Assembly (NCBI GenBank): GCA_003167365.1
Contig: PMTM01000006.1
Span: 454,391 to 518,390 of the forward strand
DNA length: 64,000 bases
Direction: 5' to 3'
Source: Spartobacteria bacterium
GTDB taxonomy: Bacteria > Verrucomicrobiota > Verrucomicrobiia > Chthoniobacterales > UBA10450
Part shown: piece by piece, positions 23,765 to 41,800 of the stretch
Layout of the letters: each line of letters begins with the position of its first letter
Position numbering within the stretch: position 1 is the stretch's first letter
Made by a program: the position numbers and the translations under genes
Notes under the pieces: generated by a model
What the model saw: the letters and a program-made list of their open reading frames with translations, nothing else
Told to the model about the DNA's origin: nothing
The model's database searches: none

Positions 23765-23803
23765 TGATGCATCGCCGGTTTCCACGAGGAGAAATCTCAG
23801 CAC

Positions 23804-23827: not shown

Positions 23828-23876
23828 GGCACCGACCCAGCACACTAGACGTTGCCTGGCATGCGACATAACTTTG

Positions 23877-23985: not shown

Positions 23986-24028
23986 GATCTAGGTTCGCTT
24001 CCTATCTTTTGAAAAGCATGCACTAAGG

Positions 24029-24691
24029 TTGGGGAACTCAGTGAGCCCTGAATCAATACTGCCTTCAAAGTTCGTAGTCCGGTTTCAAGATGATGAAACC
24101 TTCCAACAGGGTAGAGATGTACTCGCTGGCCTGACCTTCGTCGCTACCTTACAGCTGCGTACACCGTTGGCGGTTTTGGAACGTCACGGCGAGTTTCACC
24201 CGGGGCCCCCATCTGCAGCGCCGAAATATTCGTCATTAGCTGATGGTTTTTGGTCCTATAAGACAAAGTCATGGAGCGAGCTTGCTAAGCGGCCTTTGTC
24301 CTTACCGAAAGAGCCGGAGTCATTCCATGCGTCCGACATTGGACCGATAGCCCCAAGCCAATATTTGCCATTTCTAAGAGAGTTCCGACGGATCGTGGAG
24401 ACTAATAAGTTGGTAGAGGATAAGTTGTCACAACTGGATCAACTTCGACATCAAGCTCCACAATTTGAGGAGATCTGGTCTCGCCTTGAGAGCAGGTACT
24501 CTGATTTTCCAGACTCCTTTTTCTATATGCAACTCACGGCGATACCCGGAATCGGTCGAGCTCTAGCGCGTCGACTTTTCCAGCAAGGGTTTGTAAACCT
24601 TACTACTCTTCAAGCAGCATCCGACACGCAGCTTAAGGAGGTGCCTGGGCTGGGTCCCAAACTCGCGAAAAAAATCCGAGAGTTTCAATAA
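24029..24691 (+). CDS. Protein with C-terminal helix-hairpin-helix DNA-binding domain (element)
   Basis: 220 residues from TTG 24029; GTG 24041 is an alternative, and the ggttgggg run could serve as ribosome-binding site for it. The N-terminal ~150 residues are not recognised. Residues ~170-220 form tandem HhH motifs (IPGIGRALARRLFQQGFVNLTTLQAASDTQLKEVPGLGPKLAKKI), as in RuvA/Rad51/UvrC-type non-sequence-specific DNA binding. It is the first gene of the plus-strand block, 56 bases before the helicase. A DNA-end or junction sensor for the system is a plausible guess, not shown. Confidence 0.65.
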   Translation: MGNSVSPESILPSKFVVRFQDDETFQQGRDVLAGLTFVATLQLRTPLAVLERHGEFHPGPPSAAPKYSSLADGFWSYKTKSWSELAKRPLSLPKEPESFHASDIGPIAPSQYLPFLREFRRIVETNKLVEDKLSQLDQLRHQAPQFEEIWSRLESRYSDFPDSFFYMQLTAIPGIGRALARRLFQQGFVNLTTLQAASDTQLKEVPGLGPKLAKKIREFQ

Positions 24692-24747
24692 TAAGAGTGA
24701 TCGACTTGCGCGGAGCAGCAGCTTCTTACTACAGTGCTTGACCCCCA

Positions 24748-27597
24748 ATGGATCTTACCGACTACCACGCGAAGTACTTTGCCCACGAGCTAACGAAGCG
24801 GAGTCCGTCAGACAGCATGGAGAAGCTGGCCGGCGCTGTTGCCAGTGCGCAGGTGGACCTCAATCCACATCAAGTCGATGCGGCGCTCTTCGCGTTCCGT
24901 TCCCCACTGTCTAAGGGTGCGCTTCTCGCGGACGAAGTTGGATTAGGCAAGACGATCGAGGCCGGTCTAGTCCTATCGCAGAAATGGGCCGAGCGGAAGC
25001 GACGCATCCTGATCATAGTCCCGTCTAACCTGCGCAAGCAGTGGCATCAGGAACTCAGCGAGAAGTTCTTCCTGCCTTGCAGCATCTTGGAGACGAAGTC
25101 GTACAATTCCGCCGTCAAAGTCGGCAACTTCCGGCCGTTCGAAGCCGATAGCATCGTGATCTGCTCCTATCAGTTCGCACGCAATAAAGCCGCGGACGTT
25201 AGCAACACGCCGTGGGATCTGGTGGTGATCGACGAGGCGCACCGTCTTCGCAATGTTTATAAGCCCTCGAATATCATCGCGAATGCACTCAAGCTGGCGC
25301 TCGCCGGCAAAGATAAGCTCCTGCTCACAGCGACTCCTCTCCAAAATTCCCTCCTCGAACTGTTCGGACTAATCAGCTTCGTCGATGAGCACGTCTTCGG
25401 CGATTTGAAGAGCTTCCGGGAACAATTTGCCAACCTAAACCAGGAGCAGGTGTTCGACACGCTCAAGGCGCGTCTGAAGCCGCTCTGCCATCGCACGCTC
25501 CGCCGACAGGTCACTTCTTACATCCCGTTTACCAAGCGCCTACCTATGCTTGAGGAGTTCACGCCGGAGGAAGGCGAGGACCGGCTCTACAATCTCGTGT
25601 CCGATTATCTCCGGCGCGACAATCTCCAGGCTTTGCCCGCCAGCCAGCGCTCGCTCATGACACTCGTCCTGCGCAAGCTCCTTGCGTCTTCCACGTTCGC
25701 CATTGCTGGCGCGCTCGAATCCATCTCCAACCGCCTTAAGACGAAGCTCCAAAAAAAGGAGCCCACTGAGTCGCTCGAAGAAGAACTCGATCAGGATTAC
25801 GAAGCCCTCGATGAGACTGCCGAGGAATGGGAGGACGAAGCGCCGGACGAACCTCTCTCCCAAGCTGACCGCGCCGCGATTGAAGCCGAAGTTGCCGATC
25901 TCGATCAATTCGCCACGCTCGCGACCTCCATCACTCACAACTCCAAGGGCAAGTCGCTTCTGAAAGCACTGGCCGTCGCCTTCGCCAAGGCCCGCGAACT
26001 CGGAGCCGCTGAAAAGGCCATTATTTTTACCGAATCCCGCAAGACCCAGAGCTACCTCCTGCGGCTGTTGGCTGACAGCAAGTTCGCTGAGGGGATCGTC
26101 CTTTTCAACGGCTCCAATACCGACGACCGCTCCAAGCTCATCTACTCCGCATGGCTTGAGAAACACCAAGGCACCGACCGCGTCTCCGGTTCGAAAACAG
26201 CCGACATGCGCTCGGCGCTAGTTGATTACTTCCGCGAAGAAGGTCGCATCATGATCGCGACAGAGGCTGGAGCGGAGGGCATCAACCTCCAGTTTTGTTC
26301 GCTTGTTGTGAACTACGACCTGCCATGGAACCCACAGCGCATCGAACAACGGATTGGCCGTTGCCATCGCTATGGACAGAAACACGACGTCGTTGTCGTG
26401 AACTTCCTCAATCGGAAAAACGCGGCGGATCAGCGCGTCTACCAACTTCTCTCTGAAAAGTTCAAGTTATTCGAAGGTGTCTTTGGCGCGAGTGACGAAG
26501 TGCTCGGTGCCATCGAAAGCGGCGTGGACTTCGAGAAACGCATCAACGACATCTACCAGCGCTGCCGCAAGCACGTGGAAATCAAGGTCGCCTTCGACCA
26601 GCTCCAGCTCGAACTAAGTTTGGAAATCAACGAGTCAATGACCGCCACGCGGCGCAAGCTGCTGGAGAATTTCGATGATGAGGTGCGCGAGAAACTCAAG
26701 GTCAGCGACGAAGCATCAAAATCATATCTCAACCGTTACGAGCGCCTGCTCATCCAGCTTTCCCGCCACGAGCTGAATGGCCATGCGGAGTTTTGCGATG
26801 ATTCCTCCTTTCGCCTGAATGCCTGCCCGTTCGCCGGCGACATCCCTCTCGGTCTCTATGAACTTCCGCGCCGCTCGGGAGACGCACACCTTTACCGTCT
26901 GAACCATCCCTTGGCGGAGGCCATAATCGCGCAGGCAAAGGCACACAATCTCCCGGTGCAAGAAGTCCGCTTCGACTATGGCGATCACGATGGAAAGATC
27001 AGCAGCCTCGAACCTCTCGTCGGCGAATCGGGTTGGCTGTCACTCTCAAGCTTTTCCGTCGAGTCACTCGATCAGGCTGAGGACCATTTGATCTTTGCCG
27101 CAGTCACCGATGACGGCACTCCGCTGGATAACGAAGCGATACCGCGCATGTTCACACTTCCAGGAGAGGTAACCGGCGGTCCGTGTTCGAGCACCGTTCC
27201 GACTTCGTTGGCAAACGCCTCTCAGCAAGACCAGGCAGTCATCCAACGCACGATCGCCGAACGCAACGCTTGGTTTTTCGAGGCCGAAGCTGAAAAACTT
27301 GAAGGCTGGGCAGACGACCTGAAGTTGGGCCTCGAACGCGAGATCAAGGAGATTGACCGGCACATCAAGGAAGCACGCCGCGCCGCTACGACCGCGCCCA
27401 CGTTGGAGGAAAAGCTCGTTGGCCAGAAACAGATCAAGGCGCTGGAATCGCAGCGCAACGCGAAGCGGCGCTCGCTTTTCGAGTCACAAGACGAAGTGGA
27501 CAAACAGCGCGAAGGATTAATCGCGAAAATCGAAGGCAAACTGACCCAACGTGCCGAGATCAAACAGCTCTTCACCATGCGATGGCAGCTCGGTTGA
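24748..27597 (+). CDS. SNF2/RapA-like superfamily 2 helicase (defence operon)
   Basis: 949 residues. Walker A DEVGLGKT at 62-69, DEAH box VVIDEAH near 162-165, motif III LLLTATPLQNSLLELFGL, and the second RecA domain with EAGAEGINLQFCSLVVNYDLPWNPQRIEQRIGRCHRYGQ (motifs V-VI). An acidic insertion (about 330-370, EEELDQDYEALDETAEEWEDEAPDE) interrupts the helicase core. The last ~300 residues include a coiled coil rich in Glu/Lys/Arg. Proteins of this type translocate on double-stranded DNA. They are frequent next to restriction-modification genes in defence islands (DISARM, Hma-like groupings). No PLD or nuclease motif seen in this protein. Confidence 0.85.
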   Translation: MDLTDYHAKYFAHELTKRSPSDSMEKLAGAVASAQVDLNPHQVDAALFAFRSPLSKGALLADEVGLGKTIEAGLVLSQKWAERKRRILIIVPSNLRKQWHQELSEKFFLPCSILETKSYNSAVKVGNFRPFEADSIVICSYQFARNKAADVSNTPWDLVVIDEAHRLRNVYKPSNIIANALKLALAGKDKLLLTATPLQNSLLELFGLISFVDEHVFGDLKSFREQFANLNQEQVFDTLKARLKPLCHRTLRRQVTSYIPFTKRLPMLEEFTPEEGEDRLYNLVSDYLRRDNLQALPASQRSLMTLVLRKLLASSTFAIAGALESISNRLKTKLQKKEPTESLEEELDQDYEALDETAEEWEDEAPDEPLSQADRAAIEAEVADLDQFATLATSITHNSKGKSLLKALAVAFAKARELGAAEKAIIFTESRKTQSYLLRLLADSKFAEGIVLFNGSNTDDRSKLIYSAWLEKHQGTDRVSGSKTADMRSALVDYFREEGRIMIATEAGAEGINLQFCSLVVNYDLPWNPQRIEQRIGRCHRYGQKHDVVVVNFLNRKNAADQRVYQLLSEKFKLFEGVFGASDEVLGAIESGVDFEKRINDIYQRCRKHVEIKVAFDQLQLELSLEINESMTATRRKLLENFDDEVREKLKVSDEASKSYLNRYERLLIQLSRHELNGHAEFCDDSSFRLNACPFAGDIPLGLYELPRRSGDAHLYRLNHPLAEAIIAQAKAHNLPVQEVRFDYGDHDGKISSLEPLVGESGWLSLSSFSVESLDQAEDHLIFAAVTDDGTPLDNEAIPRMFTLPGEVTGGPCSSTVPTSLANASQQDQAVIQRTIAERNAWFFEAEAEKLEGWADDLKLGLEREIKEIDRHIKEARRAATTAPTLEEKLVGQKQIKALESQRNAKRRSLFESQDEVDKQREGLIAKIEGKLTQRAEIKQLFTMRWQLG

Positions 27598-27630
27598 GTC
27601 GACACTACCGAAGACGCTGAAAGGAAACCC

Positions 27631-28899
27631 ATGACAGAACCAATAATCATTTGCCCGAAGTGCAAAAACGAAATCAAACTCACTGAGTCACTGGCAGCAC
27701 CGCTCATTGAGACGACCCGCCGCGAATACGAAGAGCGTTTAAGTCAAAAAGACCTCGACCTGGCGAGCCGCGAAAGGGCAGTTGGCGAACAGCAGGACGC
27801 TTTGGCGAAAGCCAAAGAGACGCTTGACGCACAGGTCGCGGAAAAGCTGCAGCAGGAACGGGCGAAGATTGTCGCCGAAGAAGCAAAGAAGGCAAAACTT
27901 GCTGTCACCAACGATCTAAATCAAAAGACAAAAGAGGTTGCCGACTTACAGGAAATTCTAAAACAGCGCGAAGGAAAGCTTGCTGAAGCGCAAAGAGCTC
28001 AAGCGGATTTACTCAAGAAACAACGCGAGCTTGACGATGCCAAGCGTGAGTTAGACCTCACGATTGAAAAGCGTGTTCAGGAAAACCTGGCCGACGCACG
28101 GCAGAAAGCGCGCAAAGAAGTAGAAGACGAACTAACGCTGAAGGTTTCCGAAAAAGAGCAAACCATTGTTTCGATGCAGAAACAAATCGAGGAGTTAAGG
28201 CGAAAAGCTGAACAAGGCTCACAACAATTGCAAGGAGAAGTGCTGGAGCTACAACTTGAAGCAATGCTGCAGGCGAAATTTCCACATGATCTTATCGAGC
28301 CCGTGCCAAAAGGAGAACACGGCGGCGACATCTTGCATCGCGTCGTGCTGCCAAGCGGCGTTGTCTGCGGGACTATTCTTTGGGAATCCAAGCGAACGAA
28401 AAACTGGAGCGATGGCTGGCTTGCAAAACTTCGAGAAGACCAACGCACGGCGAAGGCTGAAATTGCCGTGGTGGTAAGCGGCGCGTTGCCTAAAGGCGTG
28501 GACACCTTTGACCATATTGACGGAGTTTGGATTACGCATCCACGCGCGATTTTGCCGGTGGCTCTTTCATTGCGTCAGACCCTCATAGAAGTCAATTCCG
28601 CCCGTCGGGCGAGTGAAGGCCAGCAAACCAAAACGGAATTGGTTTACCAGTATTTGACCGGCCCACGATTCCGTCAACGAGTTCAAGCCATCGTTGAAGC
28701 ATTTAGTGCAATGAAAGAAGACTTGGACAAAGAGAAAAAAGTCATGACGAAGCAATGGGCCAAACGCGAAGGAGAAATCGAGCGAGTCATGCAATCTACC
28801 GTTGGCATGTATGGCGACCTCCAAGGAATTGCCGGTAAGACAATTCAGGAGATTGATGGATTGGAAATGAAGGCGCTAGGGGAAGGCGAGGTCCAATGA
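27631..28899 (+). CDS. DUF2130 protein: coiled coil plus probable PD-(D/E)XK nuclease-like domain
   Basis: 422 residues, with a good ribosome-binding site (aaaggaaaccc) before ATG 27631. N-terminal CPKCKNEI is a half zinc-knuckle. Residues ~30-205 form a long Glu/Lys/Gln-rich coiled coil. Residues ~215-330 match DUF2130: LEAMLQAKFPHDLIEPVPKGEHGGDILHRV, then GTILWESKRTKNWSDGWLAKLREDQ. The order D...(15-20)...E-x-K is the pattern of a restriction-endonuclease-like fold, which I infer. Its stop overlaps the start of the OLD-like gene by ATGA. The usual DUF2130 context is unclear; here it is inside a defence operon. Confidence 0.8.
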   Translation: MTEPIIICPKCKNEIKLTESLAAPLIETTRREYEERLSQKDLDLASRERAVGEQQDALAKAKETLDAQVAEKLQQERAKIVAEEAKKAKLAVTNDLNQKTKEVADLQEILKQREGKLAEAQRAQADLLKKQRELDDAKRELDLTIEKRVQENLADARQKARKEVEDELTLKVSEKEQTIVSMQKQIEELRRKAEQGSQQLQGEVLELQLEAMLQAKFPHDLIEPVPKGEHGGDILHRVVLPSGVVCGTILWESKRTKNWSDGWLAKLREDQRTAKAEIAVVVSGALPKGVDTFDHIDGVWITHPRAILPVALSLRQTLIEVNSARRASEGQQTKTELVYQYLTGPRFRQRVQAIVEAFSAMKEDLDKEKKVMTKQWAKREGEIERVMQSTVGMYGDLQGIAGKTIQEIDGLEMKALGEGEVQ

Positions 28900-30755
28900 A
28901 ACTCACCGAATTAAAACTCCAGAACTTCCGCAGCTACAGGAACGAGACACTCGTCATCTTCGACAATCTTACGGTTCTGATCGGCCGCAACGATTCAGGG
29001 AAATCAACAATCCTCGACGCGTTGAATATCTTCTTCAACGACGCTTCAATAGAACAAGATGACGCATCCGCCCAAGGGGATGCAACGGATGTTCGCATTT
29101 CCTGCGTCTTTTCAGAGCTTCCTGATTCAATCGTGCTGGATGATCAGCATCCCACCACACTTCAAGCGGAGCACCTGGTCCGACAGGATGGGAGGTTGGA
29201 TGTCTGTCGCGTGTTCAACTGCAGCTTGGCAAAACCAAAGCAAACAAGAATTTTCGCCAGGGCGCTTCATCCAACAGCGGCGGGATGCGGTGACCTCATG
29301 GGACTCAAGATCAATGATCTGAAGGCCCGCGCAGTCCAACAAGGGGCTGAGCTCGGCGGAATAAATCAGACCGTTAAAACCGAATTGAGAGAGGCTATTT
29401 GGAATCATGCGGGGAACCTTGCGCTTGCAGCCACGGAAATCGACCTTGGTGCGGAGACTGGCAAAGCTGTCTGGGATCAAATCCAAACCCATCTGCCGGT
29501 CTTCGCCGTATTCAAGTCGGACCGCACGAGCACGGATCAAGACGAGGAGGCTCAAAATCCGATGAAAGCAGCGATCAAGGAAGCCGTGAGAGAACATGAG
29601 GCTCAACTCAATGGGCTGATCGCGCAGGTCAAAACAGAGTTGGAAAGGGTTGCGCTTAAGACGGTCGAGAAGATTCAAGAAATGAGCCCAGACCTTGCCA
29701 GCACTCTGAGCCCGCAGGTCAAAAATAAGAATTGGGAATCACTCTTTTCCGTGTCTCTCACAGGCGCCGATGGAATTTCGATCAACAAGCGCGGAAGCGG
29801 AACGCGGCGGCTCGTTCTGCTCAACTTCTTTCGAGCAAGGGCGGAAGATGCGGCTTCCGACAAGGGGACGGGAACCATTTACGCAATCGAGGAGCCAGAA
29901 ACAAGTCAGCATCCTAACCATCAGTTGATGCTCCTGGATGCCTTTCAGGAGTTAACCAGCCATGGAACGTGCCAGGTCATTCTCACCACACACACTCCGA
30001 CACTTGCCAGAAGGGTTGACCGCAATCTCCTTCGACTTGTCAGCCAAGTCGACAGGCACCCAGTTATTCAATACGGGAGCGACGATGGAACGCTCGCAGC
30101 AATCAAGAGCACACTTGGCGTTCTGGCGGATCACGATGTGAGAGTCTTCCTCGGCGTCGAGGGGAAATGGGATATTGAGTTCCTGAAACGTCTCTCCAAA
30201 ATACTTCATGCCAATGACGAAACCGTACCAGACCTGACGGCGGCTGAGGCAAGCGGCGCATTGGTCTTCATTCCACTCGGAGGCGGCAGCATGGATCTCT
30301 GGTCAGCTCGGCTCGCCGGGATCGATCGTCCCGAATACTACATTACCGATCGTGATAATCCGCCTCCGGAACCGGCGAAATATCAAGCCCAACACGCTAT
30401 TTGGAATGCGCGTCCTAATTGCACCGCATATTGCACCTCAAAGCGCGAACTGGAGAACTATCTGCATCCTGACGCAATACGAGTCATCGCGCCGACGTTT
30501 GCCGCCGCAATTCAAGACTTTGACGACGTCCCGATGATGCTTGCAGAAACTCTACATACTGCTGATCCAGCCGCTCCGAACTGGCTAACGGTGACGCCCG
30601 AGAAAAGGAAGGAGAAGGCATCCCGCGCAAAGCGGCGGCTGAATCAAGCGTGTGTGGATAACATGACAACAGCACTCCTAAATCAGTCTGACGCCGTTGG
30701 GGAAATCATAGGTTGGTTGAGAAATCTCGGGATTGCATTGGCCCAACAACCGTGA
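28896..30755 (+). CDS. OLD-like ABC ATPase with TOPRIM nuclease domain
   Basis: 619 residues. The ATPase half: Walker A LIGRNDSGKST (30-38), an inserted coiled region, signature-like GSGTRRLVLLNFF, Walker B TIYAIEEPETSQHP, and H-loop ILTTHTPTLARR. From about residue 400 a TOPRIM domain: VFLGVEGKWDIEFLKRL (catalytic Glu), LGGGSMDLWSA, and YYITDRDNPP (the D-x-D metal site). This is the architecture of OLD family nucleases and GajA, which cut DNA in anti-phage systems such as Gabija. No UvrD-type GajB follows; a Type III Mod gene does, with a GTGA overlap. Confidence 0.88.
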   Translation: MKLTELKLQNFRSYRNETLVIFDNLTVLIGRNDSGKSTILDALNIFFNDASIEQDDASAQGDATDVRISCVFSELPDSIVLDDQHPTTLQAEHLVRQDGRLDVCRVFNCSLAKPKQTRIFARALHPTAAGCGDLMGLKINDLKARAVQQGAELGGINQTVKTELREAIWNHAGNLALAATEIDLGAETGKAVWDQIQTHLPVFAVFKSDRTSTDQDEEAQNPMKAAIKEAVREHEAQLNGLIAQVKTELERVALKTVEKIQEMSPDLASTLSPQVKNKNWESLFSVSLTGADGISINKRGSGTRRLVLLNFFRARAEDAASDKGTGTIYAIEEPETSQHPNHQLMLLDAFQELTSHGTCQVILTTHTPTLARRVDRNLLRLVSQVDRHPVIQYGSDDGTLAAIKSTLGVLADHDVRVFLGVEGKWDIEFLKRLSKILHANDETVPDLTAAEASGALVFIPLGGGSMDLWSARLAGIDRPEYYITDRDNPPPEPAKYQAQHAIWNARPNCTAYCTSKRELENYLHPDAIRVIAPTFAAAIQDFDDVPMMLAETLHTADPAAPNWLTVTPEKRKEKASRAKRRLNQACVDNMTTALLNQSDAVGEIIGWLRNLGIALAQQP

Positions 30756-32395
30756 CCAAGAAGCAAAAACTCGAACTGACGTGGATTGGAAAGGAGAACC
30801 GGCCTCGGCTGGAGCCGCGCATCTTGCTGGAAGACCCGGAGAAGTCGCATCACGCGACGCACCGGGTGACGGATCACGACCTATTCGATAACCGCCTCAT
30901 CTTTGGCGACAATCTCCTCGCTCTCAAAGCGCTCGAACAGGAGTTTACCGGCAAGATCAAGTGCATCTATATTGATCCACCTTACAACACCGGCAGCGCA
31001 TTCGAGCACTACGATGATGGAATTGAACACTCGCTTTGGCTTTCTCTGATACGCGATCGATTGGAAATACTGAGGAACCTTCTCAGTGAGGACGGCAGTA
31101 TTTGGATTAGCGTCGACGACAATGAAGCTGCGTATCTAAAGGTTTTGCTCGATGAAATCTTTGGAAGGATAAACTTCCTTAACACTTTTGTATGGAAGAA
31201 AGCTTATGGCGGGGGCGCGAAGTCTCGGTGGTTTGTGGGGATGCATGAATACATTCATTGCTTCGTCAAAAACCGCGAAGTATTCCCGGATATGTTCTTG
31301 TCACCGGATCCGAATGCAGAGTCCCGGTATTACAAATTGCAAGATAGTAAGTTGGAAACACGCGGACCATTTCGAGTTAAGCCGCTTGAAGCGACCAAAA
31401 GCATGGATCGGCGAGAGAACTTGGTCTATTCAATTCCCGCTCCTGACGGCACCGAAGTTTGGCCCAAGAGACAGTGGTGGTGGGCAAAAGAGCGAGCCTA
31501 CGCTGCGCTTCGAAACGATGACTTGTATTTCAGCAAAGCAAAGGACGGATCGTGGTCGATCCAATACAAGCAATACCTGAAGGATCCTGAAGGTAATGAA
31601 CGCCTCCGAAAACCAACATCGATCATTGATGGACCTTACACACAAGACGGAACAAAAGAGAGTATCGCTCTCTTTGGCGAAGCAAACAAATTCGCCTTTC
31701 CGAAACCTGAAGGTCTAATAAACACAATCATTGAAGCATGCACAAAGCCTGGAGATATCATCATCGACTCGTTCGCCGGTTCAGGCACCACAGGCGCGGT
31801 GGCGCACAAAATGCGACGGCGCTGGATCATGGTGGAGTTGGGGGAGCATTGTCACACGCACATCATTCCCCGGCTCAAGAAGGTGATTGATGGGGCAGAC
31901 TCGGGCGGCATCACGGAAGCCGTGGGTTGGAAAGGCGGCGGCGGTTTCCGCTATTACCGGCTCGCACCTTCACTACTAGAAAAGGACAAATGGAACAATT
32001 GGGTGATCAGCAAGGAATTCAACGCTGCGATGTTGGCCGAGGCGGTCTGCAAGCTGGAAGGTTTTAATTATGCACCGAGCGACGCGGTTTACTGGCAGCA
32101 TGGCCTTTCCACCGAACGCGATTTCATCTACGTAACGACGGCCAATTTGAATCATAACCAGCTTCAGGCGTTAAGCGATGAAGTAGGTGCAGGACGCAGC
32201 CTCTTAATAGTGTGCTCTGCCTTTCGGGGTCGCAAAGACGGTTATCCGAACCTGACAGTAAAGAAGATTCCAAAAGCCGTGCTGTCCCGATGTGAATGGG
32301 GCCACGACGATTACTCCTTGCAGGTGGAGAACCTGCCCAAAGCGCCGCCTAAGCCGGGGCAGCAATCGCTCTTTGGAGAAGAGGTAGCGCAGTGA
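30752..32395 (+). CDS. Type III-like site-specific DNA adenine methyltransferase (Mod)
   Basis: 547 residues from GTG 30752, which overlaps the stop of the OLD-like gene. The frame is open further upstream but the overlap start fits best. Beta-class order: catalytic motif IV CIYIDPPYN at about residues 71-79 comes first, and the SAM-binding motif I DSFAGSGTTG is in the C-terminal half. Between them is the ~180-residue target recognition domain. DPPY indicates N6-adenine methylation. The tail (from about 440) is a Mod-specific domain. The partner Res gene follows with a GTGA overlap. Expected to protect host DNA and give sequence specificity to the complex. Confidence 0.9.
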   Translation: MTKKQKLELTWIGKENRPRLEPRILLEDPEKSHHATHRVTDHDLFDNRLIFGDNLLALKALEQEFTGKIKCIYIDPPYNTGSAFEHYDDGIEHSLWLSLIRDRLEILRNLLSEDGSIWISVDDNEAAYLKVLLDEIFGRINFLNTFVWKKAYGGGAKSRWFVGMHEYIHCFVKNREVFPDMFLSPDPNAESRYYKLQDSKLETRGPFRVKPLEATKSMDRRENLVYSIPAPDGTEVWPKRQWWWAKERAYAALRNDDLYFSKAKDGSWSIQYKQYLKDPEGNERLRKPTSIIDGPYTQDGTKESIALFGEANKFAFPKPEGLINTIIEACTKPGDIIIDSFAGSGTTGAVAHKMRRRWIMVELGEHCHTHIIPRLKKVIDGADSGGITEAVGWKGGGGFRYYRLAPSLLEKDKWNNWVISKEFNAAMLAEAVCKLEGFNYAPSDAVYWQHGLSTERDFIYVTTANLNHNQLQALSDEVGAGRSLLIVCSAFRGRKDGYPNLTVKKIPKAVLSRCEWGHDDYSLQVENLPKAPPKPGQQSLFGEEVAQ

Positions 32396-35076
32396 ACCGT
32401 CACGTCAACGCTATTTCCGGACGTCTGAGCCTACGCCCGCCACAGCGTCATTCATTGGAAATCCTTGACCGCGTCACGGAGATCGTGCCGCCATGCAAGG
32501 GAGCAGATTTGGCTGCAGCACTGGAAGTCATCCGCGGTGAGTATCCCACGGTTACGGACTTCGAACGCGAGTTCCCTTCGCTCTGCTTCGCGCTGGCCAC
32601 TGGCGTGGGAAAAACACGGCTGATGGGCGCATTTATCAGCTATCTGCATCTCGCTCACGGCATCAATAACTTCTTCGTCATGGCGCCAAACCTGACGATA
32701 TACAATAAGCTCATCACAGATTTCACGCCGAACACGCCGAAGTATGTCTTCAAAGGCGTTGCGGAATTTGCGACGAACGCTCCAGAGATCATTACCGGCG
32801 ATGATTACGAAGCAAAGGCGGGCACACTGTTCGATCAGATGCTTCGCTGCAAGGTGAACATATTTAACATCTCCAAGATCAACTCTGAAGTACGCGGCGG
32901 TCGATCGCCGAAAATCAAACGTCTTTCCGAATACATCGGGGAAAGCTATTTCGAGTATCTAGCGGCTTTGCCCGACCTTGTGCTGATCATGGATGAATCG
33001 CACCGCTATCGGGCGAGCGCAGGCGTGCGCGCAATTAACGAATTGAAGCCCGTTCTGGGATTAGAACTGACGGCAACGCCATTCGTCGAAACAAGCAAAG
33101 GACCAGTGGCATTCAAGAATGTCATTTACGATTACCCACTCGCCAAAGCGATGGCGGACGGTTTCGTCAAGGAGCCGGCCGTCGTCACACAGAAAAATTT
33201 CGATCCGAGTCGCTTTTCCACAGCCGAGATCGAGAAGATCAAACTCGAGGACGGCATTCGTCTTCACGAAAACATAAAGGTAGAGCTTGAGACGTTCGCG
33301 CGACAGACCAGTCAACCGATCGTGAAGCCATTCGTTCTCGTTATCGCGCGCGATACTACACATGCCGGCAATCTCCTGAAGCTGATCCAGTCAGACAAAT
33401 TTTTCGAAGGCCGTTACAAGGACAAAGTTATTCAGGTCGACTCGAGCAAGACTGGCGCGGAAGAGGAAGAAATGATCGAGCGCTTGCTGAAGGTGGAACA
33501 CACCGATGAACCAACCGAGATCGTGATTCACGTGAACATGCTCAAAGAAGGATGGGACGTGACCAATCTTTACACGATCGTTCCGCTTCGCGCGGCCAAC
33601 GCTCGCACGCTTATTGAGCAGTCGATCGGACGAGGTCTGCGTCTTCCGTACGGAAAGCGAACAGGCGTGACCGCAGTCGACCGCCTGAACATTGTCGCGC
33701 ACGACAAGTTTCAGGAGATCGTAGACGAAGCGAACAAGCCCGACTCCGTGATTCGTATGCAGCAGGTGATCCTCGATCCTTCAGCCGGATTCGAAAAGAT
33801 GGCCACAGTCGTTTCACAGGCAGGTGTGCTTGGGCGACTTGGGGTCCAGCCTTTGGAGTCTAGTTCCAGTGCTATCACACAATCGATGTCCCCTGCCGGA
33901 GAGCCTCTTTTCAAGACTGAGGCGGAGCAGGCGGTCGCCAAGATCACTTACGATGTAGTCGCCGACTTTGAAAAACTGCCAAACTCTAGTTCGATTCTCA
34001 AGAAGGGCGTGCAGGCGGAAATTGTCGCCAGAGTACAAGAAGTTCTGACGCCGACGCAGGCGGAGTTTGCGGGAGTCGTCGATAAGCCAGACATCGCAGC
34101 CGTCGTAGCTAAGACTTCTGAGTTAATCGTCCAGCAGACGATCGACATTCCGAGAATACTTGTGGTGCCGCGAGGTGAAGTCACCAGCGGCTTCGACGCA
34201 TTCAAAATAGATGCAACATCAATCCACTATCAGCCGGTCGAACGCGATATACTCATCCAGCATTTGCGAACGCATCAGGTTGAAACGTTGACAGCGGTGG
34301 GGAATGCACAAAAGGAACTCCGGTTAGAGGATTACATCGTCCGCGCGTTAATCGACTTCGACGATATCTCCTACGACCAGGATGCGGATCTCCTCTACAA
34401 CCTTGCTGGCCAGATGCTCACGCACCTTCGAAGCTACTTGGGAGATGAAAACGACCTCGTGAACGTGCTGCAATACTACCCGCGCCAGCTTGCCGAATTT
34501 ATTCACGCCCAGATGGAGGGTCATCATTGGGAGAAAGCGAGTGGATATGACGTCGTGGTGAACAAAGGCTTCACATCACTGAAGCCTTCTGCCTTCACGG
34601 CGCGGGCGGAAGATCCAATTCACGACTTTCGCCATCCGGTGAAAGACAAATCGAAAATTACGCAGATGATATTCGGCGGCTTCAAGCGCTGCCTTTATCC
34701 GGTTCAGAAGTTTGACTCCGACTCGGAGCGCGTTCTTTCGGTGATTCTTGATCGCGAAGCCGAGAAATGGTTCAAGCCGGCGCGCGGCCAGTTCCAAATC
34801 TTTTATAAGTGGGGTACCGATCAGCGCGAATACCAGCCGGATTTTGTCGCTGAAACGAGCAAGTGCATCTACATGCTCGAACCAAAGATGCGAAAAGACA
34901 TGGAAGATCCCGAAGTAATTGCAAAAAAGGATTCAGCTGTTCGTTGGTGCCAGCACGCGTCTGAGCATTCGGTGAAGAACAGCGGCAAGCCGTGGAAGTA
35001 TCTTTTGATCCCGCATGATGCCATCGCAGAGAATATGACTCTGGCTGGGATCGAGGCTCAATTCTCAGCAAGCTAG
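32392..35076 (+). CDS. Type III-like restriction enzyme (Res): SF2 helicase with C-terminal PD-(D/E)XK domain
   Basis: 894 residues from GTG 32392. Walker A ATGVGKTRL at about 69-77, DEAD-box variant IMDESHRYRA, motif III LELTATP, and motifs V-VI around NMLKEGWDVTNLYTIVPLRAANARTLIEQSIGRGLRLP. The C-terminal region holds YQPDFVAETSKCIYMLEPKMR: Asp, then E-x-K after a short strand, the expected endonuclease core of Type III Res proteins. Together with Mod it forms a complete-looking Type III-like system. It is the last gene of the coupled block. Confidence 0.88.
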   Translation: MNRHVNAISGRLSLRPPQRHSLEILDRVTEIVPPCKGADLAAALEVIRGEYPTVTDFEREFPSLCFALATGVGKTRLMGAFISYLHLAHGINNFFVMAPNLTIYNKLITDFTPNTPKYVFKGVAEFATNAPEIITGDDYEAKAGTLFDQMLRCKVNIFNISKINSEVRGGRSPKIKRLSEYIGESYFEYLAALPDLVLIMDESHRYRASAGVRAINELKPVLGLELTATPFVETSKGPVAFKNVIYDYPLAKAMADGFVKEPAVVTQKNFDPSRFSTAEIEKIKLEDGIRLHENIKVELETFARQTSQPIVKPFVLVIARDTTHAGNLLKLIQSDKFFEGRYKDKVIQVDSSKTGAEEEEMIERLLKVEHTDEPTEIVIHVNMLKEGWDVTNLYTIVPLRAANARTLIEQSIGRGLRLPYGKRTGVTAVDRLNIVAHDKFQEIVDEANKPDSVIRMQQVILDPSAGFEKMATVVSQAGVLGRLGVQPLESSSSAITQSMSPAGEPLFKTEAEQAVAKITYDVVADFEKLPNSSSILKKGVQAEIVARVQEVLTPTQAEFAGVVDKPDIAAVVAKTSELIVQQTIDIPRILVVPRGEVTSGFDAFKIDATSIHYQPVERDILIQHLRTHQVETLTAVGNAQKELRLEDYIVRALIDFDDISYDQDADLLYNLAGQMLTHLRSYLGDENDLVNVLQYYPRQLAEFIHAQMEGHHWEKASGYDVVVNKGFTSLKPSAFTARAEDPIHDFRHPVKDKSKITQMIFGGFKRCLYPVQKFDSDSERVLSVILDREAEKWFKPARGQFQIFYKWGTDQREYQPDFVAETSKCIYMLEPKMRKDMEDPEVIAKKDSAVRWCQHASEHSVKNSGKPWKYLLIPHDAIAENMTLAGIEAQFSAS

Positions 35077-35408
35077 CAGCGGGTGCAAACGGCGGCGCGT
35101 TGCTTTGATTCAGCGTCGCATGGCCGCGAGGTAATCGAAGCAGATTTTTTCAAATTCACACAGCCGCGTCCTTAATCATCTTCTCTATCGTTTTCGATTC
35201 CTGGCCGCCACGGTCCTCGTGACCTGAACCCAGAAGCCTTCCCGTCATACTTTTCCACTAATTCCTAAGCCTCCGTGCGGACCCCCGCCGGGGGCTTTTG
35301 CCGTTTTTGGGCCACGAGAAGCGGCCCATCACGGACTCGTGGCCACGCGAACGCAAGGACGTGTTCAACTCAATCGGACTCGCGTGAAAGAAATAGAAGG
35401 CAACACGA
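35077..35408. other. Gene-free stretch after the Res gene with terminator-like hairpin and inverted repeat
   Basis: No convincing gene. CCCCCGCCGGGGG at 35282-35294 followed by cttttgccgttttt looks like a Rho-independent terminator for the defence operon. Just after it, GGCCACGAG (35310-35318) and CTCGTGGCC (35336-35344) form a perfect 9-bp inverted repeat, which could be an operator or a second hairpin ahead of the small genes at 35409-35827. Confidence 0.5.
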
Positions 35409-35594
35409 ATGACAAAAGGCAAAAAACGACAGGGCTGTAAAATATTGCCGATAATAAAGGCAATTGAAACGGCCATCTTGATCCTAATGGCGGTCTATAA
35501 GGCCGTTAAGTTTGTGATCGAGGAAATCCGGACACAACGTGTGTCACAACACACGGCTGATTCGGATGGAGCAGACCAGTGGCACTTAAAATGA
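35409..35594 (+). CDS. Small single-pass membrane peptide (element)
   Basis: 61 residues from ATG 35409. A basic start (MTKGKKRQG) is followed by a hydrophobic segment of about 27 residues (ILPIIKAIETAILILMAVYKAVKFVI) and a hydrophilic tail. Its end overlaps the start of the next small gene by 16 bases. Short, basic-plus-hydrophobic peptides on mobile elements are often toxins or membrane anchors, but nothing specific is recognised. There is a chance it is not a gene. Confidence 0.4.
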   Translation: MTKGKKRQGCKILPIIKAIETAILILMAVYKAVKFVIEEIRTQRVSQHTADSDGADQWHLK

Positions 35595-35827
35595 GCGCCA
35601 AATGGTACACTCCGCAGCTGTCGCGTGAGATTGTGCGCCGGCTCTACCACAGAGCCAAGTTTGAGCAGATACCCATGACCGTCCTCGCAAATCGGATCAT
35701 GGAAAAGGCGCTCGCCACAGAACACACGGTCGAATGTCGGCGAGATACGAACAGTGACACACGCGCAGTGCCGCCTCCGGGCAAACGCTCAAAACGGGTT
35801 GAATCGGCAGTAGTCGCATCACGCTAA
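35579..35827 (+). CDS. Small protein, possibly ribbon-helix-helix (element)
   Basis: 82 residues from GTG 35579, or 78 from ATG 35591. The core WYTPQLSREIVRRLYHRAKFEQIPMTVLANRIMEKAL has the strand-helix-helix look of RHH regulators (a beta segment, then helix 1 with RRLYHRA, a turn IPMT, helix 2). The tail is basic and disordered. It overlaps the membrane-peptide gene, so the two may be a pair such as toxin and regulator; this is speculative. A strong terminator follows. Confidence 0.45.
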   Translation: MALKMSAKWYTPQLSREIVRRLYHRAKFEQIPMTVLANRIMEKALATEHTVECRRDTNSDTRAVPPPGKRSKRVESAVVASR

Positions 35828-35873
35828 AGCCTGTTCAGAGACTCAGCACTCCGCGGCAAAATGCAGCAAGGGG

Positions 35874-35919
35874 GAGCCCAGTTGTGATCCGGCTGGGCTC
35901 TCTCTTTATTTATTTTTTA
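35874..35919 (+). terminator. Rho-independent terminator
   Basis: GAGCCCAG (35874-35881) pairs with CTGGGCTC (35893-35900) over an 11-base loop, followed by a T-rich run to 35919. It closes the plus-strand gene block of the element. Confidence 0.85.
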
Positions 35920-36395
35920 CTATGCATGATACGTTGAGCACACGTCTATGCACCCAACCCGCGCCTGCCCTGCGCTGGTTTTTTCGTTTCTGAGTTCTGG
36001 AGTACAGCGCCTTTGGCTGATGTGTTATTTGAAATGTGGCATTGTGACCCCAATTTTCGGAATTCAAACTCTGACCCGAGTCAGAAGGGCCGACCCGAAG
36101 GGGATTTTTGCCATTAAAAGATTCCTTTAACCACGGCGGTCGCAGAGAAAATCTTTCGCGACGGAAGGGTCGAACGTCCATTTTCTGTGTGGACGTTGGG
36201 GACATTTTCCGGTTTAGACTACGGGTTGTCTCAGTCTCACTCCCTATAGGAAAATATTTGAGACTGAGACTTGAGACAGAGTAGAGACTGCGGGGCTCAG
36301 TCGCCGCCCGCGCGGGCGCGGTTGGACTGAGACCTAAGGCACCTTGTCTCATGGCAGTCTCACTGAGACTCGCGTGAGACAACTTTGAGACAATA
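35920..36395. other. Candidate replication origin: GAGAC/GTCTC repeat array with GC palindrome and hairpins
   Basis: Between 36228 and 36391 the pentamer GAGAC occurs 8 times and its complement GTCTC 4 times on the plus strand, mostly as tGAGAC. The array surrounds a GC palindrome with core CCCGCGCGGG near 36307-36318 and AT-rich patches (gaaaatatttg, caatattaagg). Left of it are a hairpin TCTGAC-CCGA-GTCAGA (36070-36085) and an inverted repeat AACGTCCA/TGGACGTT (36173-36197). It lies directly downstream of the element's ATPase and primase genes. Iteron-like arrays beside replication genes are typical of origins; function here is inferred. No gene is called in this stretch. Confidence 0.55.
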
Positions 36396-37511
36396 TTAAG
36401 GTTTGGTTCCATTTTTTGCCGTCTGCGGGTAGCACAATTCATCAATCTTGCTGAGGTGCAGCAGCCCCTTCGTGAGCGTCTTTTCGACAAGCCTGAATGC
36501 GCTTGCTCTTGGAACTCCTCTGTTCTGGGCAAACTTCGCTAGCGTTGCCCGCGTAGCTCCGTCAGCAGGACACTTGGCAGCAATTTCTTCGATTGAGCAG
36601 AGTGGTTCTTTTTCTTTCCCATTGGTCATCTCCTCTTTCCACTCCTCAAGGTCGAAGCCAGGTATTAACTCGTAAATCATGTAGCCCGCCGTTCCTGGTA
36701 AGGTATTCAGCTCGACCGCGAACGGCTTGAACTCGCGCCCGTTGTTATTTTTCCCGCACCCGATAATCAGTCGGTCGTTATTCTCCCCGTCGATTGGCGC
36801 GACGTTGATCTGTGCGCGCATCGTCGCCAGCAACACCTTGCTGTTGCGACCGAACGAAGCGCGGTCGTGTCCAACCGCCCTTAGTGCTCCCATTTTGCCC
36901 GTAATGGCATGATGCAGAAAAAACGGGACGCGTTTGGGGTCGCCTGCTTTTGCCAGCCGCTTTAACTCTTGCACGACCGCGAGCATGTCGCGGTCTTGAT
37001 TCAAGTCGCCAAAGGTGAAGTCCTTTAACGGGTCGAAAACCGCCGCATCCGGTTTGTGGTCCGCAATGCCCGCAGCGATGAGGGGCGCGGCGACCTCGAC
37101 CTGTAACAGCTCATCCTCGTCTTTTTCCAAAGTGTGCTGAATCATGTGCTGTTCGACCAATTCCCATTTGCCGGGGTCGCCGGGGTAAAGGTGTTCGACC
37201 CATTTTTTCAGGTGCCGCAAATCCCATTGCTGCCGTCTCATGGAATTCTCAGTCTGAAAAAACATCCACTTTCGCGGTCGCCCGTGAGTCGCCAGTGTGT
37301 CGCAGAATGGGCGATTGAGAATCTGACAGACCGCGATTTGCTGAATCAACCGCGACTTACCGACCCCGCCAACGCCGCAGAGTGCTGCCGATTGAGTTTC
37401 GGCCACGATACGGTCGCCCAGGATCATGTCGGAGTCATCGAACTCCATTCCTAATATTTCGTTAGGGGAACGAAAACTGAGACCACCAGGAGCAGAAGTT
37501 TTTATGCTCAT
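36396..37511 (-). CDS. RecA-like AAA ATPase, RepA/helicase-like (element replication)
   Basis: 371 residues. Walker A LCGVGGVGKSRLIQQIA near residues 43-58, Walker B PDAAVFDPLKDF, and a later FFLHHAITGK sensor-like segment. This is the AAA_25/RepA-type fold used by plasmid and satellite replication helicases. The C-terminal ~80 residues (CSIEEIAAKCPADGATRATLAKFAQNRGVPRASAFRLV) look like a winged-helix/HTH that could bind the adjacent repeat array. It overlaps the primase gene by ATGA, so primase and ATPase are co-translated. Confidence 0.75.
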   Translation of the reverse strand: MSIKTSAPGGLSFRSPNEILGMEFDDSDMILGDRIVAETQSAALCGVGGVGKSRLIQQIAVCQILNRPFCDTLATHGRPRKWMFFQTENSMRRQQWDLRHLKKWVEHLYPGDPGKWELVEQHMIQHTLEKDEDELLQVEVAAPLIAAGIADHKPDAAVFDPLKDFTFGDLNQDRDMLAVVQELKRLAKAGDPKRVPFFLHHAITGKMGALRAVGHDRASFGRNSKVLLATMRAQINVAPIDGENNDRLIIGCGKNNNGREFKPFAVELNTLPGTAGYMIYELIPGFDLEEWKEEMTNGKEKEPLCSIEEIAAKCPADGATRATLAKFAQNRGVPRASAFRLVEKTLTKGLLHLSKIDELCYPQTAKNGTKP

Positions 37512-38539
37512 GATGGCAACACCTCCCAGAGCACGCGCTTTGACTCGAAATCGTCGTAGGAAATCGAAGTCAGATCGTTAAAATCTTTTACCGGATCGCC
37601 GTTTTCCTGAGTCAGTGAACTGAAGTCGAACCAGGATAAGTTTGCGCCCACAGTTTCTAATTGTTCCCACCATCGCAATGCAGCTTGCAGTCCGGCATCA
37701 TCCGCGTGCGCAAAAATGCGAACCTGTTTTCCGGCAAAGAGCGGCAGCGCGGCAGCGGAAATGCGGCAAGACGCGCCGAGCATTGCGGTGATCACAACGC
37801 TCACTTCTTTTTTTTCGGCGAACGCATACCCGAAAGCTGCCAGCATGTCCGGTGCGCCTTCCACGAGCGCGGCCTTGTCGCATCGTCTTAGCGACTCGCA
37901 ATTGAGCGGCCAACTTTGATCGCTGCCGCGCCATGTGTGCGCCTTGCGCTCTTCCTGTTCGCCAGCGGCCGGAAACTCCTGTCCGTCCAGGCGACGACTT
38001 TGAGCGAGCCGGAAACTCTGGTCCAGGAGTGTCCAGCTCGGATAACCGCAACAATCACCGAATCTGAGCAGACCGGCGTCGGATGCCAACTTCAGGCCTT
38101 CGACGCTGATGCTGCGCAACCGGCTGAGCACCGCGAATTCCGCTTTCGTGCCGATCCGGAAATTCTCAGGATGAATTTTCCGGTGTTTTTTGGTCTCTGC
38201 TTTTCGAAAGGTCGCGCCATTGTAGCCGCCGCCCTCAACCGTTGCGCCTCTGGCAAGCGCGCAAAATTCGGCAATCGCTTGGGAATTCGTTAGGCTGCGT
38301 GCCTTGGCGAGAAAATCAATCGCGTCGCCGTGTTCGCCCGTGCTCCAATCCTTCCACTTTTCAAATCCGTCCGAGGGGTCAACCGATACTTCAAAACTCG
38401 GCTTCCGGTCTTCTCGGAAAGGACTCCTGCACTTTTTGGACGGTTCGCCTGGAAGACTGAGCCTTTGCCAAAGCGCCGTGATAGAAAGACGCGCTCTCGC
38501 GTCCACGATTGACATCGCTGGATCAAGTAGAGTTGTCAT
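37508..38539 (-). CDS. CHC2/TOPRIM-type primase (element replication)
   Basis: 343 residues from ATG 38539 (a TTG at 38566 is also in frame). The N-terminal part has CRSPFREDRKPSFEVSV...WKDWSTGEHGDAIDFLAK, the conserved core of DnaG-type zinc-binding domains, although only one Cys remains here so zinc may be lost. The C-terminal half is TOPRIM-like: LVEGAPDMLAAFGYA (catalytic Glu), VVITAMLGAS, and RIFAHADDAG (D-D site). It would prime DNA synthesis at the element origin with the coupled ATPase. Confidence 0.7.
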   Translation of the reverse strand: MTTLLDPAMSIVDARARLSITALWQRLSLPGEPSKKCRSPFREDRKPSFEVSVDPSDGFEKWKDWSTGEHGDAIDFLAKARSLTNSQAIAEFCALARGATVEGGGYNGATFRKAETKKHRKIHPENFRIGTKAEFAVLSRLRSISVEGLKLASDAGLLRFGDCCGYPSWTLLDQSFRLAQSRRLDGQEFPAAGEQEERKAHTWRGSDQSWPLNCESLRRCDKAALVEGAPDMLAAFGYAFAEKKEVSVVITAMLGASCRISAAALPLFAGKQVRIFAHADDAGLQAALRWWEQLETVGANLSWFDFSSLTQENGDPVKDFNDLTSISYDDFESKRVLWEVLPS

Positions 38540-38584
38540 GAATGAGAGGCCGCGCACCTTTGCCAAGTAGCGCGGCTTTTCTTT

Positions 38585-39019
38585 TCAGCCCACTGCGACA
38601 ACTGCTGTGTTGTTGTTGGCGCGCTGAACACCGCCCGCCGGTTTGTCCGGCGAGACAGGAAACGGCTCTTCGCCATTCAGAATCCGTTGCCAGCAACGGG
38701 CCAGATCGCCCTTGTCGAACAGTTTCAGTTTATGCCTGTGAAGGCGCGGTTTTATCCAACCCGCGCGTTCAAATTCTTGTAGCAATTTTTCGCTACCTAA
38801 ACTGTGCGCGGCTTCGTCCGGCCGAAACCCGAATTTTACAACCTCGAAGGAATTTTTTCTCATTTCCTTCGTGCGCCGTGTCAACCAAGGAACCCTTAAA
38901 AAGGGATGCTTCCCCTCGTAAGCGGTCGCGAAAATACTTTGCAGCGCGCTGCAAAGAGCGTTTCGGGCATTAACCTGGTCAGTGTTTATCTGGCGAATAG
39001 GCGGCGAAAAAGCGCCCAT
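38585..39019 (-). CDS. Small element protein, possibly excisionase/AlpA-like
   Basis: 144 residues. Not firmly recognised. The segment SEKLLQEFERAGWIKPRLHRHKLKLFDKGDLARCWQRI resembles a MerR/excisionase winged helix (hydrophobic helix, a turn with GWIKP, beta-wing with KLKLF, then a helix), which would suit a recombination directionality factor next to the integrase. It overlaps the preceding gene by 34 bases and precedes the primase by a short gap. The first ~50 residues may be an over-extended start. Confidence 0.5.
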   Translation of the reverse strand: MGAFSPPIRQINTDQVNARNALCSALQSIFATAYEGKHPFLRVPWLTRRTKEMRKNSFEVVKFGFRPDEAAHSLGSEKLLQEFERAGWIKPRLHRHKLKLFDKGDLARCWQRILNGEEPFPVSPDKPAGGVQRANNNTAVVAVG

Positions 39020-39405
39020 TCGCTTCCTGGTCGCCTTTTAACAGGTCTAGGCACAATGCTGCGCCCTGCGCGCAGAATGGTGCGCGTGGTCTTGCTTTCA
39101 CTCGCTAACGCCCGCCAGAGCGTATCCACGTCCGGCTCGCGCAAGAGACCTGCATCGTAAAGCTGCTGAGCAGCCACGTCAGTCAGTTCCCCACCTGATT
39201 TGCAGTAAATTTTGTTGTGCGTTGGATGCGAGAGCACATTTGATGATCCATCCCACAAATCCGAATTTTTCTTGTAGAGTTTTTTGGCTTTTGCCGTCGT
39301 CTTCGACATCAGTCCGCCGATGTCATTGATGACGGCAAAAGCTACTGGCGTAACTTCAGTTCCAAACTGGTCGCCGCTGACAGTTTTGACGGTGGCTTTT
39401 CGCAT
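38986..39405 (-). CDS. Small element protein of unknown function
   Basis: 139 residues starting 15 bases after the integrase stop. Basic, with no membrane segment or signal. Visible features: FAVINDIGGLMSKTTAKAKKLYKKNSDLW and a C-terminal helical half with KTTRTILRAGR. No family recognised. Its position inside the integrase-primase operon suggests a role in element maintenance. Confidence 0.5.
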   Translation of the reverse strand: MRKATVKTVSGDQFGTEVTPVAFAVINDIGGLMSKTTAKAKKLYKKNSDLWDGSSNVLSHPTHNKIYCKSGGELTDVAAQQLYDAGLLREPDVDTLWRALASESKTTRTILRAGRSIVPRPVKRRPGSEWALFRRLFAR

Positions 39406-39420
39406 CGGATAAACACGTTT

Positions 39421-40485
39421 TCAGCCGATAGAGGCGAACGCCTTTTCGATGTCATCGTCTTTTGGACTGAGTTTCGCGTAGTGTTTCTGCACGACCCGCA
39501 CATCATCACCCATCCAGACCGCGACTTTGTAGATCGACACGCCTTTGCTCACGAGCAGAGACGCAAACGTGTGGCGCATCACGTGCGGCGTTACCCATTC
39601 GCAACCGAGGCTCTTCATGTATTGGCGAAACGGTCGCCGAAAATCATATCGATAAAGTGCAGCCCCTTTCACAACGTCAGGTCGCAGCATGAACGGCGAG
39701 CGCATTCCGTAGCGCCGCAGAAACTTTTGAAACTCGGCCGTGAGCGGAACCGTCCGCGCTTCCCGATCTTTCGGCCGGAATGATTGAGTGGCGCGGACGT
39801 GCAGCGCACCGCGCTCCAGGTCGAACCAATCAGGACGCGCTTCGATGATTTCATTCTTGCGAAGTCCCGCATGGAAGCCGCAATAAAGAATGAATTTCAT
39901 TTCGTCGTTCGGCGCGTCGGCAATCAGTTTGTCGCGCTCTTCCGGTGAACAAAACAGCAATCGGCTTTTTTGATCGAGCCGCGCCAGCTTCACGTCTTTG
40001 ACCGGATTGGACCGGATGCGTTTCAGTTCCACCTGACGATTGAAGAAACTGCGAACGGTTGTGATGTAACCTTGCGCCGTTGATTCACTCACCCGCTCTT
40101 GCAAGTGCCGATAGTAGCGTTCGATGTCCGCCGCTGTGATCGCCGCCACGTCGCGTTTGTTTACGAACTCAGCGAACTCGGAGAGCGCATACTGTTTCGA
40201 TTCGCGGCTCGCGGGCGAGTATTCATTCTGCCGTTCCTTGTAGTCGAGGAACGCGTCGACTTCCAAATCCAGAGGCGCGGACTCGTTGAGGAACGGGTTC
40301 TGTAAAACTTCGGTCGCCTTAAAGACTGCATCGCCGTAATCCGATGTGCCGAGACTTACTTGCGTCCGGCGTCCGCTCTCCATGCGCGCATACCAAAAGA
40401 TGTTGCCGCGCTGATAAATGCCCTTTATTTTCGCCGCTCGTGAAGAAGTCCGGTTTACGTTTTTTTCGCTCAGTGTTTTGCTCAT
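39421..40485 (-). CDS. int: Tyrosine recombinase / phage-type integrase
   Basis: 354 residues. N-terminal arm-binding-like region (KIKGIYQRGNIFWYARMESGRRTQVSLGT), SAM-like core-binding domain (~75-170), and catalytic domain with Arg in CGFHAGLRKNEI, the HxxR box in THVMRHTFASLLVSKG, and the Tyr in VVQKHYAKLSP. It integrates and excises the element at the anticodon region of tRNA-Val. Its start lies 106 bases from the tRNA, and the arm-type sites fall in its probable promoter, so Int binding may repress its own gene. It is the first gene of the minus-strand operon reaching to 36396. Confidence 0.92.
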   Translation of the reverse strand: MSKTLSEKNVNRTSSRAAKIKGIYQRGNIFWYARMESGRRTQVSLGTSDYGDAVFKATEVLQNPFLNESAPLDLEVDAFLDYKERQNEYSPASRESKQYALSEFAEFVNKRDVAAITAADIERYYRHLQERVSESTAQGYITTVRSFFNRQVELKRIRSNPVKDVKLARLDQKSRLLFCSPEERDKLIADAPNDEMKFILYCGFHAGLRKNEIIEARPDWFDLERGALHVRATQSFRPKDREARTVPLTAEFQKFLRRYGMRSPFMLRPDVVKGAALYRYDFRRPFRQYMKSLGCEWVTPHVMRHTFASLLVSKGVSIYKVAVWMGDDVRVVQKHYAKLSPKDDDIEKAFASIG

Positions 40486-40516
40486 GTGGATTGGAAGCAG
40501 GTGTTACTTCCTCCAC

Positions 40517-40539
40517 TGTAGTAAACGACTGTAGTAAAT
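40517..40539 (+). promoter_or_regulatory. Integrase arm-type sites, right end
   Basis: TGTAGTAAAC (40517-40526) and TGTAGTAAAT (40530-40539), direct repeats that match the left-end pair at 23804-23827 in sequence, order and orientation. They lie 53-75 bases inside the core and upstream of the integrase start. Confidence 0.65.
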
Positions 40540-40591
40540 CAAGCGAAAATCGAGACTTTAGCGGACTATACAGATCAATCCTCCATAGGAA

Positions 40592-41800
<1,209 letters not shown>

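Follow-up and report, generated by a model that had tools for sequence, protein, structure and literature searches.

The question raised by this locus is what a dense cluster of short repeats does directly behind the gene of a RecA-like ATPase, and whether it could be a replication origin. In the window (the whole stretch of 64,000 nucleotides that we analysed) the GAGAC/TGAGAC iteron array, a putative origin with no strand assigned, occupies 164 bp at 36228–36391. GAGAC occurs eight times on the forward strand (starts at 36260, 36266, 36273, 36284, 36329, 36365, 36376 and 36387) and four times on the reverse strand, read as GTCTC (starts at 36228, 36234, 36346 and 36357). Eleven of the 12 pentamer copies extend to TGAGAC, and the iteron spacings are 6, 7, 8, 11, 17, 26 and 45 nt. 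The sequence-only reading had described 12 copies, eight direct and four inverted, in 164 bp next to the ATPase gene, and the coordinates confirmed all of these details. The rest of the window (63.8 kb) holds 96 pentamer copies, with a maximum of 4 per 160 nt. It is practically negligible that the array is a chance or low-complexity cluster without function: 0.24 pentamers are expected per 160 nt, the probability of at least 12 is ∼6e-17 per position in the window, and in 100 dinucleotide shuffles the commonest 6-mer reached 11, the array's count, in 0/100. The occurrence of the same layout in many relatives (see below) excludes this explanation.

The array begins 5 bp past the stop codon of the ATPase gene, that is, 3' of this gene and not in its promoter, and it contains two inverted arrangements of iterons. 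The first (36228–36270, no strand assigned) is a perfect 12-bp inverted pair, GTCTCAGTCTCA / TGAGACTGAGAC, with two iterons in each arm (36228–36239 and 36259–36270); between the arms lie CCCTATAGG (36242–36250) and the AT-rich AAAATATT. This pair is the counterpart of the core seen in relatives. The second pair has 19-nt arms (36344–36362 and 36364–36382, no strand assigned) that are 84% complementary. Both pairs, together with CCCTATAGG, had been missed in the first reading, which placed the palindrome CCCGCGCGGG at the centre of the array. That palindrome is present at 36307–36316 (no strand assigned), where it separates two iteron clusters, but the palindrome common to relatives is CCC-TATA-GG at 36242–36250; no counterpart of CCCGCGCGGG was seen in the relatives that we read by eye rather than systematically.

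Folding of single strands gave z = −3.75 for 36228–36270 and z = −3.79 for 36344–36382, and a long stem-loop 3' of the replication gene was likewise present by folding in relatives, with z down to −7.78. The folds of L035, L019 and L040 were disregarded, as the coordinates used cut their palindrome. The z-scores support a stem-loop potential, yet an inverted protein-binding site would look alike. Strong stem-loops predicted right after a stop codon could also act at the RNA level, as a transcription terminator or an mRNA-stabilising stem-loop after the ATPase operon. We consider this highly unlikely: the stem-loops that we read have no U-tract after them, the many extra direct iterons outside the stem would be superfluous for a terminator, and the repeat varies along with the DNA-binding domain (see below). 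In the plasmid pRN1, moreover, the terminator is separate and dispensable, and it is the larger stem-loop that is needed for replication (PMC4234260).

The ATPase gene (36396–37511, reverse strand), present in one copy in the genome, encodes a putative initiator-helicase of 371 aa. Its only Pfam match above the cut-off is AAA_25 (5.9e-14), and a PDB search with a profile built from 29 relatives found RepA of RSF1010, a hexameric helicase (1g8y, E = 3.5e-10). The AlphaFold2 model, computed from 22 sequences (pLDDT 88.6), has a RecA-type core, and its best fold match is again 1g8y (Z = 23.3, 228 aligned residues, rmsd 2.8). Helicase activity in the 5'-3' direction has been demonstrated for an AAA_25/RepA-like protein, GP46 of Lactococcus phage F13 (PMC8965321). 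At the C-terminus (about residues 300–366, 36414–36614, reverse strand) the model shows a helix-helix-helix-hairpin unit, a predicted winged helix that would provide the helicase with a DNA-binding domain; the predicted recognition helix comprises residues 335–347, RASAFRLVEKTLT, at 36471–36509. Modelled separately, the domain was again predicted as a winged helix (pLDDT 80) and resembled many winged-helix proteins (Z = 6–7.4). Since none of these matches stood out, we claim only the fold class.

The primase gene (37508–38539, reverse strand) overlaps the ATPase gene by 4 bp. Its product is of the DnaG type, with a CHC2 zinc finger and a Toprim domain (weak Pfam matches, 7.7e-5 and 0.006) and a match to the PHROG DNA primase (2.5e-5). 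Partition loci are built in this way too, with an array of short repeats next to an ATPase gene, and the array here might instead be a centromere, or a packaging or transfer site, bound by the ATPase. The match of this ATPase to RepA/DnaB-type helicases (best 1g8y, Z = 23.3) and its place in an operon with a primase argue against such a role, no gene for a ParB-like partner was noticed, and we regard it as extremely unlikely.

Both genes belong to an element whose bounds are given by an exact 40-bp repeat of tRNA-Val at its two ends. attL (23725–23764, forward strand) reproduces the 5' part of tRNA-Val exactly, and attR (40592–40631, forward strand) is the first 40 bp, counted from the 5' end, of the intact gene (40592–40666), so that the element extends over 16.9 kb, from 23725 to 40591. 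Two relatives, G014 and G011, have a left flank that continues unbroken into the tRNA. Insertions into tRNA genes usually replace the 3' part. This one occupies the 5' half, and because of that the rebuilt tRNA-Val has the element, not the native promoter region, upstream of it. The element carries a tyrosine recombinase (integrase) gene (39421–40485, reverse strand; Pfam Phage_integrase, 1.8e-12), two small overlapping genes of 144 and 139 aa upstream of the primase gene (38585–39405, reverse strand) without a convincing family match, the primase and ATPase genes, the array and defence-like cargo. Between 23725 and 40591 we saw no genes for phage structural proteins. The element shares with PICI-like satellites an integrase, att sites and replication genes without structural genes, and judged by its sequence it appears to be an integrative, satellite-like element.

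The cargo (24029–35076, forward strand) is tightly packed and consists of a 220-aa ORF, a DrmD-like SNF2 helicase (PADLOC, 3e-207), a 422-aa gene without a PADLOC match, an AriA/OLD-like ATPase, and type III mod and res. The last four of these genes overlap, and the whole looks like a single composite defence locus. Adjoining the array is an 82-aa gene (35579–35827, forward strand) whose sequence is reminiscent of ribbon-helix-helix proteins and which has no Pfam match. Elsewhere in the window, two tandem pilin-like genes of 134 aa each (1702–2106 and 2458–2862, reverse strand) are near identical, differing at few positions.

We compared the array with the corresponding region of related elements. 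Single-protein scans of genome contigs, viral contigs, plasmids and phages with the ATPase of the window returned no relative; the relatives came from whole-genome and alignment-based searches. The closest ATPase relatives (28–45% identity) are found in the same family and order, in other Verrucomicrobiota and in IMG/VR viral contigs. The other genes of the element had no tblastn match in the eight loci compared, and for this reason the comparison followed the ATPase alone and not the primase-ATPase pair. The relatives have a common plan, in which repeats lie 3' of the ATPase gene and the repeat word differs among elements: GTGGAA in L013, L015, L016 and L103, TGTGAAA in L014, TGAGAAT in L019, L023 and L029, GAGAC in L017, L035 and L036, CGGAAA in L020 and L083, CGACAC or TATGACAC in L037–L041, and GCTGCAA in L006 and L009. 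Usually one or two copies of the repeat stand on either side of a palindrome (for example CCCCTATAGGGG, CCCCTTTAGGGG or CCCCGTAGGGG), with more copies nearer the stop codon. L063 and L058 have, within 330 nt past the ATPase gene, two consecutive units of palindrome and inverted repeat (GTCCCGTCCGTCCC...CCCTAGGGG) instead of one. The strict palindrome is missing from about a third of the closer homologues, and no clear array was found in L021, L022, L075, L086 and L109; in L012/L034, with an ATPase about 40% identical, the contig stops 36 nt past the stop codon. The ATPase gene of L015 (about 9400–10540, reverse strand) is split into overlapping frames, and its repeat array appears intact. Repeat clusters at the same spot were also recognised by eye in the Firmicutes phages EFC-1, Javan173, Castelnaud, FP_Lugh and Vegas and in Dulem virus 35, which have primase and RepA-type helicase genes. 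In these genomes (L113–L118) the dense short repeats lie about 20–300 nt past the primase-helicase gene (for example ACGAAAA in Javan173 and AGCTATT in EFC-1).

To put numbers on this layout, the 320 nt 3' of the ATPase gene were scored in 63 distinct loci for a repeat cluster (one 6-mer present at least 5 times) and for a palindrome of the form CCC-N(2-6, with TA)-GGG. Behind the ATPase gene a repeat cluster was found in 52% and the palindrome in 54% of the loci, compared with 7% and 1.7% 3' of 296 further ORFs from these loci (for the palindrome, ATPase versus other ORFs, Fisher p = 5.5e-25); a variant with random windows as the control gave 35/64 versus 2.2%. Conservation of the repeats in related elements had been proposed earlier as a check on the array. 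By sequence comparison the GAGAC repeat itself is not conserved in the relatives, but the architecture is. The same counts bear on whether the array could be an operator, with the repeats serving as binding sites for the ATPase's winged helix, or for some other regulator, in the control of transcription rather than replication. Iteron-binding initiators often autoregulate, and in many relatives (e.g. L013) a co-directional gene follows the array. However, the arrays lie behind the ATPase gene and not before it (5' of the ATPase ORF, a repeat cluster in 2% and the palindrome in 0%), and in the window the array is flanked by two convergent genes, which end at 35827 (forward strand) and 36396 (reverse strand), and precedes no gene, which makes an operator unlikely.

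The repeats change together with the C-terminus of the ATPase. In a Mantel test of 44 distinct loci, loci with similar C-termini also tended to have similar called 6-mers (p = 0.0005), also when core similarity was given (p = 0.0035); core similarity added nothing once the C-terminus was given (p = 0.22). The correlation was confined to the called repeat, a comparison of whole 5-mer spectra with the C-terminus showing none (p = 0.22). In the 38 pairs whose cores are ≥65% identical, C-terminal identity predicted shared repeats (rho 0.66; 0.43 when near-identical pairs are left out) and core identity had no predictive value; the pairwise p-values are rough because the pairs are related sequences and not independent. 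Two comparisons come near to natural swaps of the C-terminal domain, as far as sequences can tell, and are near-clean. L035 and L040 have cores 88% and C-termini 25% identical, with GAGAC in one and TATGACAC in the other and the same C/TA/G palindrome. L037 and L040 have cores 94% and C-termini 61% identical, and again the repeats differ (CCGACAC versus TATGACAC) and the C/TA/G palindrome is kept. Restricting the Mantel test to the recognition helix gave a partial p = 0.019 for all 44 loci, weaker than the whole C-terminus, and p = 0.07 in two subsets, where the repeat is correlated with the ATPase core as well. Pairings like that of ..ATAYR.. with TGAGAAT, or of ..SRAYE.. with GTGGAA, do no more than hint at a residue-level code; we do not claim one, since the test on the recognition helix gave a weaker result than that on the complete C-terminus.

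The conserved layout and position, the predicted winged helix and the joint change of iterons and C-terminus give strong comparative support to a replication origin. Together with the structural models they make it very likely that the array is the origin of an integrative satellite-like element, putatively bound by the winged helix of the element's own RepA-like helicase. The proposal of the sequence-only reading, that the array is the origin and that the ATPase C-terminus may bind it, is thus the best reading and is largely supported by the comparison. At such an origin the C-terminal winged helix of the RepA-like helicase would bind the TGAGAC iterons, and with inverted iteron pairs flanking the C-rich/TATA/G-rich palindrome a pair of helicase rings could form in head-to-head orientation. 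Opening would then take place at the AT-rich core or at an extruded hairpin, with melting at the palindrome, the primase from the overlapping gene would prime synthesis, and the element would replicate after excision. That two rings face each other is suggested by the inverted pairs, and we likewise infer the role of the palindrome.

An iteron/stem-loop origin behind its own helicase gene is, as a design, already known. SaPI Rep and SCCmec Cch2 use their C-terminal domains to recognise short iterons that follow immediately after the respective gene, at the origin of SaPI and the putative origin of SCCmec, and for Cch2 sequence-specific binding to 5-nt iterons has been shown biochemically (PMC7581432). 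Our locus resembles these systems in a helicase with a C-terminal DNA-binding domain (here predicted), in short iterons directly downstream and in a primase alongside. However, the SaPI/SCC helicases are of the DUF927 or D5/Primase_Cterm types (PMC7581432), whereas here the helicase is of the RepA/RecA type, with iterons placed around a C-rich/TA/G-rich palindrome that recurs. The ATPase is not homologous to SaPI Rep (Pfam AAA_25 only; best fold RSF1010 RepA), and because the helicase family differs we do not file the element as SaPI-type, though it would work like one. A P4-like replicon (alpha/ori/crr, with a fused Toprim primase-SF3 helicase-ori-binding protein), which had served as a model in the first reading, was rejected because the helicase is of the RepA/RecA type and not SF3; moreover, primase and helicase are here encoded by separate genes.

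The stem-loop has its parallel in the Sulfolobus plasmid pRN1 and the similar phage BIP-1, where a long stem-loop follows the replication gene and the encoded protein has a winged helix at its end (PMC4234260), as is predicted here. In pRN1 deletion and relocation showed that the stem-loop origin is needed for replication and is sufficient when relocated, and its structure is conserved while its sequence is not (PMC4234260). pRN1 differs in having an AEP primase plus SF3 helicase and an origin described as lacking iterons (PMC4234260). The present arrays thus unite SaPI/SCC-like iterons and a pRN1-like stem-loop on a RepA-type helicase. RSF1010 (IncQ), with RepA/RepB/RepC, supplies the closest solved relative of the helicase (1g8y) and combines iterons with the priming hairpins ssiA/ssiB (PMC4234260). 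There RepB' serves as primase and a separate RepC binds the iterons, whereas here the RepA-like helicase carries a predicted winged helix of its own; no RepC-like match was found among the element genes with the libraries used, in which the two small genes had no match.

Joint change of initiator and origin is known from PLE satellites, in which the DNA-binding domain of RepA co-varies with the origin and the remainder is conserved, and the nuclease Odn of phage ICP1 mimics PLE RepA to cut the iterons (PMC8263062). PLE is alike in being a satellite whose initiator has a DNA-binding domain that changes with the origin by modular swapping (PMC8263062), and it differs in its RepA_N initiator, which is not a RepA/RecA-type helicase, and in iterons of about 30 bp. 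In proteins that join a PrimQH-type primase, a RepA/DnaB-type helicase and a winged helix, the last was suggested to read the origin; the authors named no target sequence and did not mention iterons (PMC5862659). Like ours, these proteins have a winged helix at the C-terminus, after a RepA-type ATPase; they differ in that the primase of the window is a separate Toprim protein.

Within this design, we found no description in the literature searched of the helicase family, of the C/TA/G palindrome that recurs, or of such breadth among phages and satellites. It is possible, though we would not yet call it probable, that they represent a widespread undescribed class of origin in phages and satellites. 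Such origins would combine a hairpin of nearly constant C-rich/TA/G-rich form, at which the helicase is loaded or synthesis is primed, with freely changing iterons of 5–8 nt that are read by the exchangeable winged helix of a RepA-like helicase. By analogy, incompatibility or an attack on the iterons like that of Odn on PLE could drive the variation and fast turnover of the repeats. The natural pairs of helicase tail and repeat, L035/L040 and L037/L040 among them, form a data set for how initiators change their DNA specificity. If the array is indeed an origin of this kind, the origins of many uncultured phages and satellites could be read from sequence, behind the gene of the RepA-like helicase, and the winged helices proposed as origin readers (PMC5862659) would gain their missing DNA partner. 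It would also define a 2.3-kb candidate replicon for Verrucomicrobiota.
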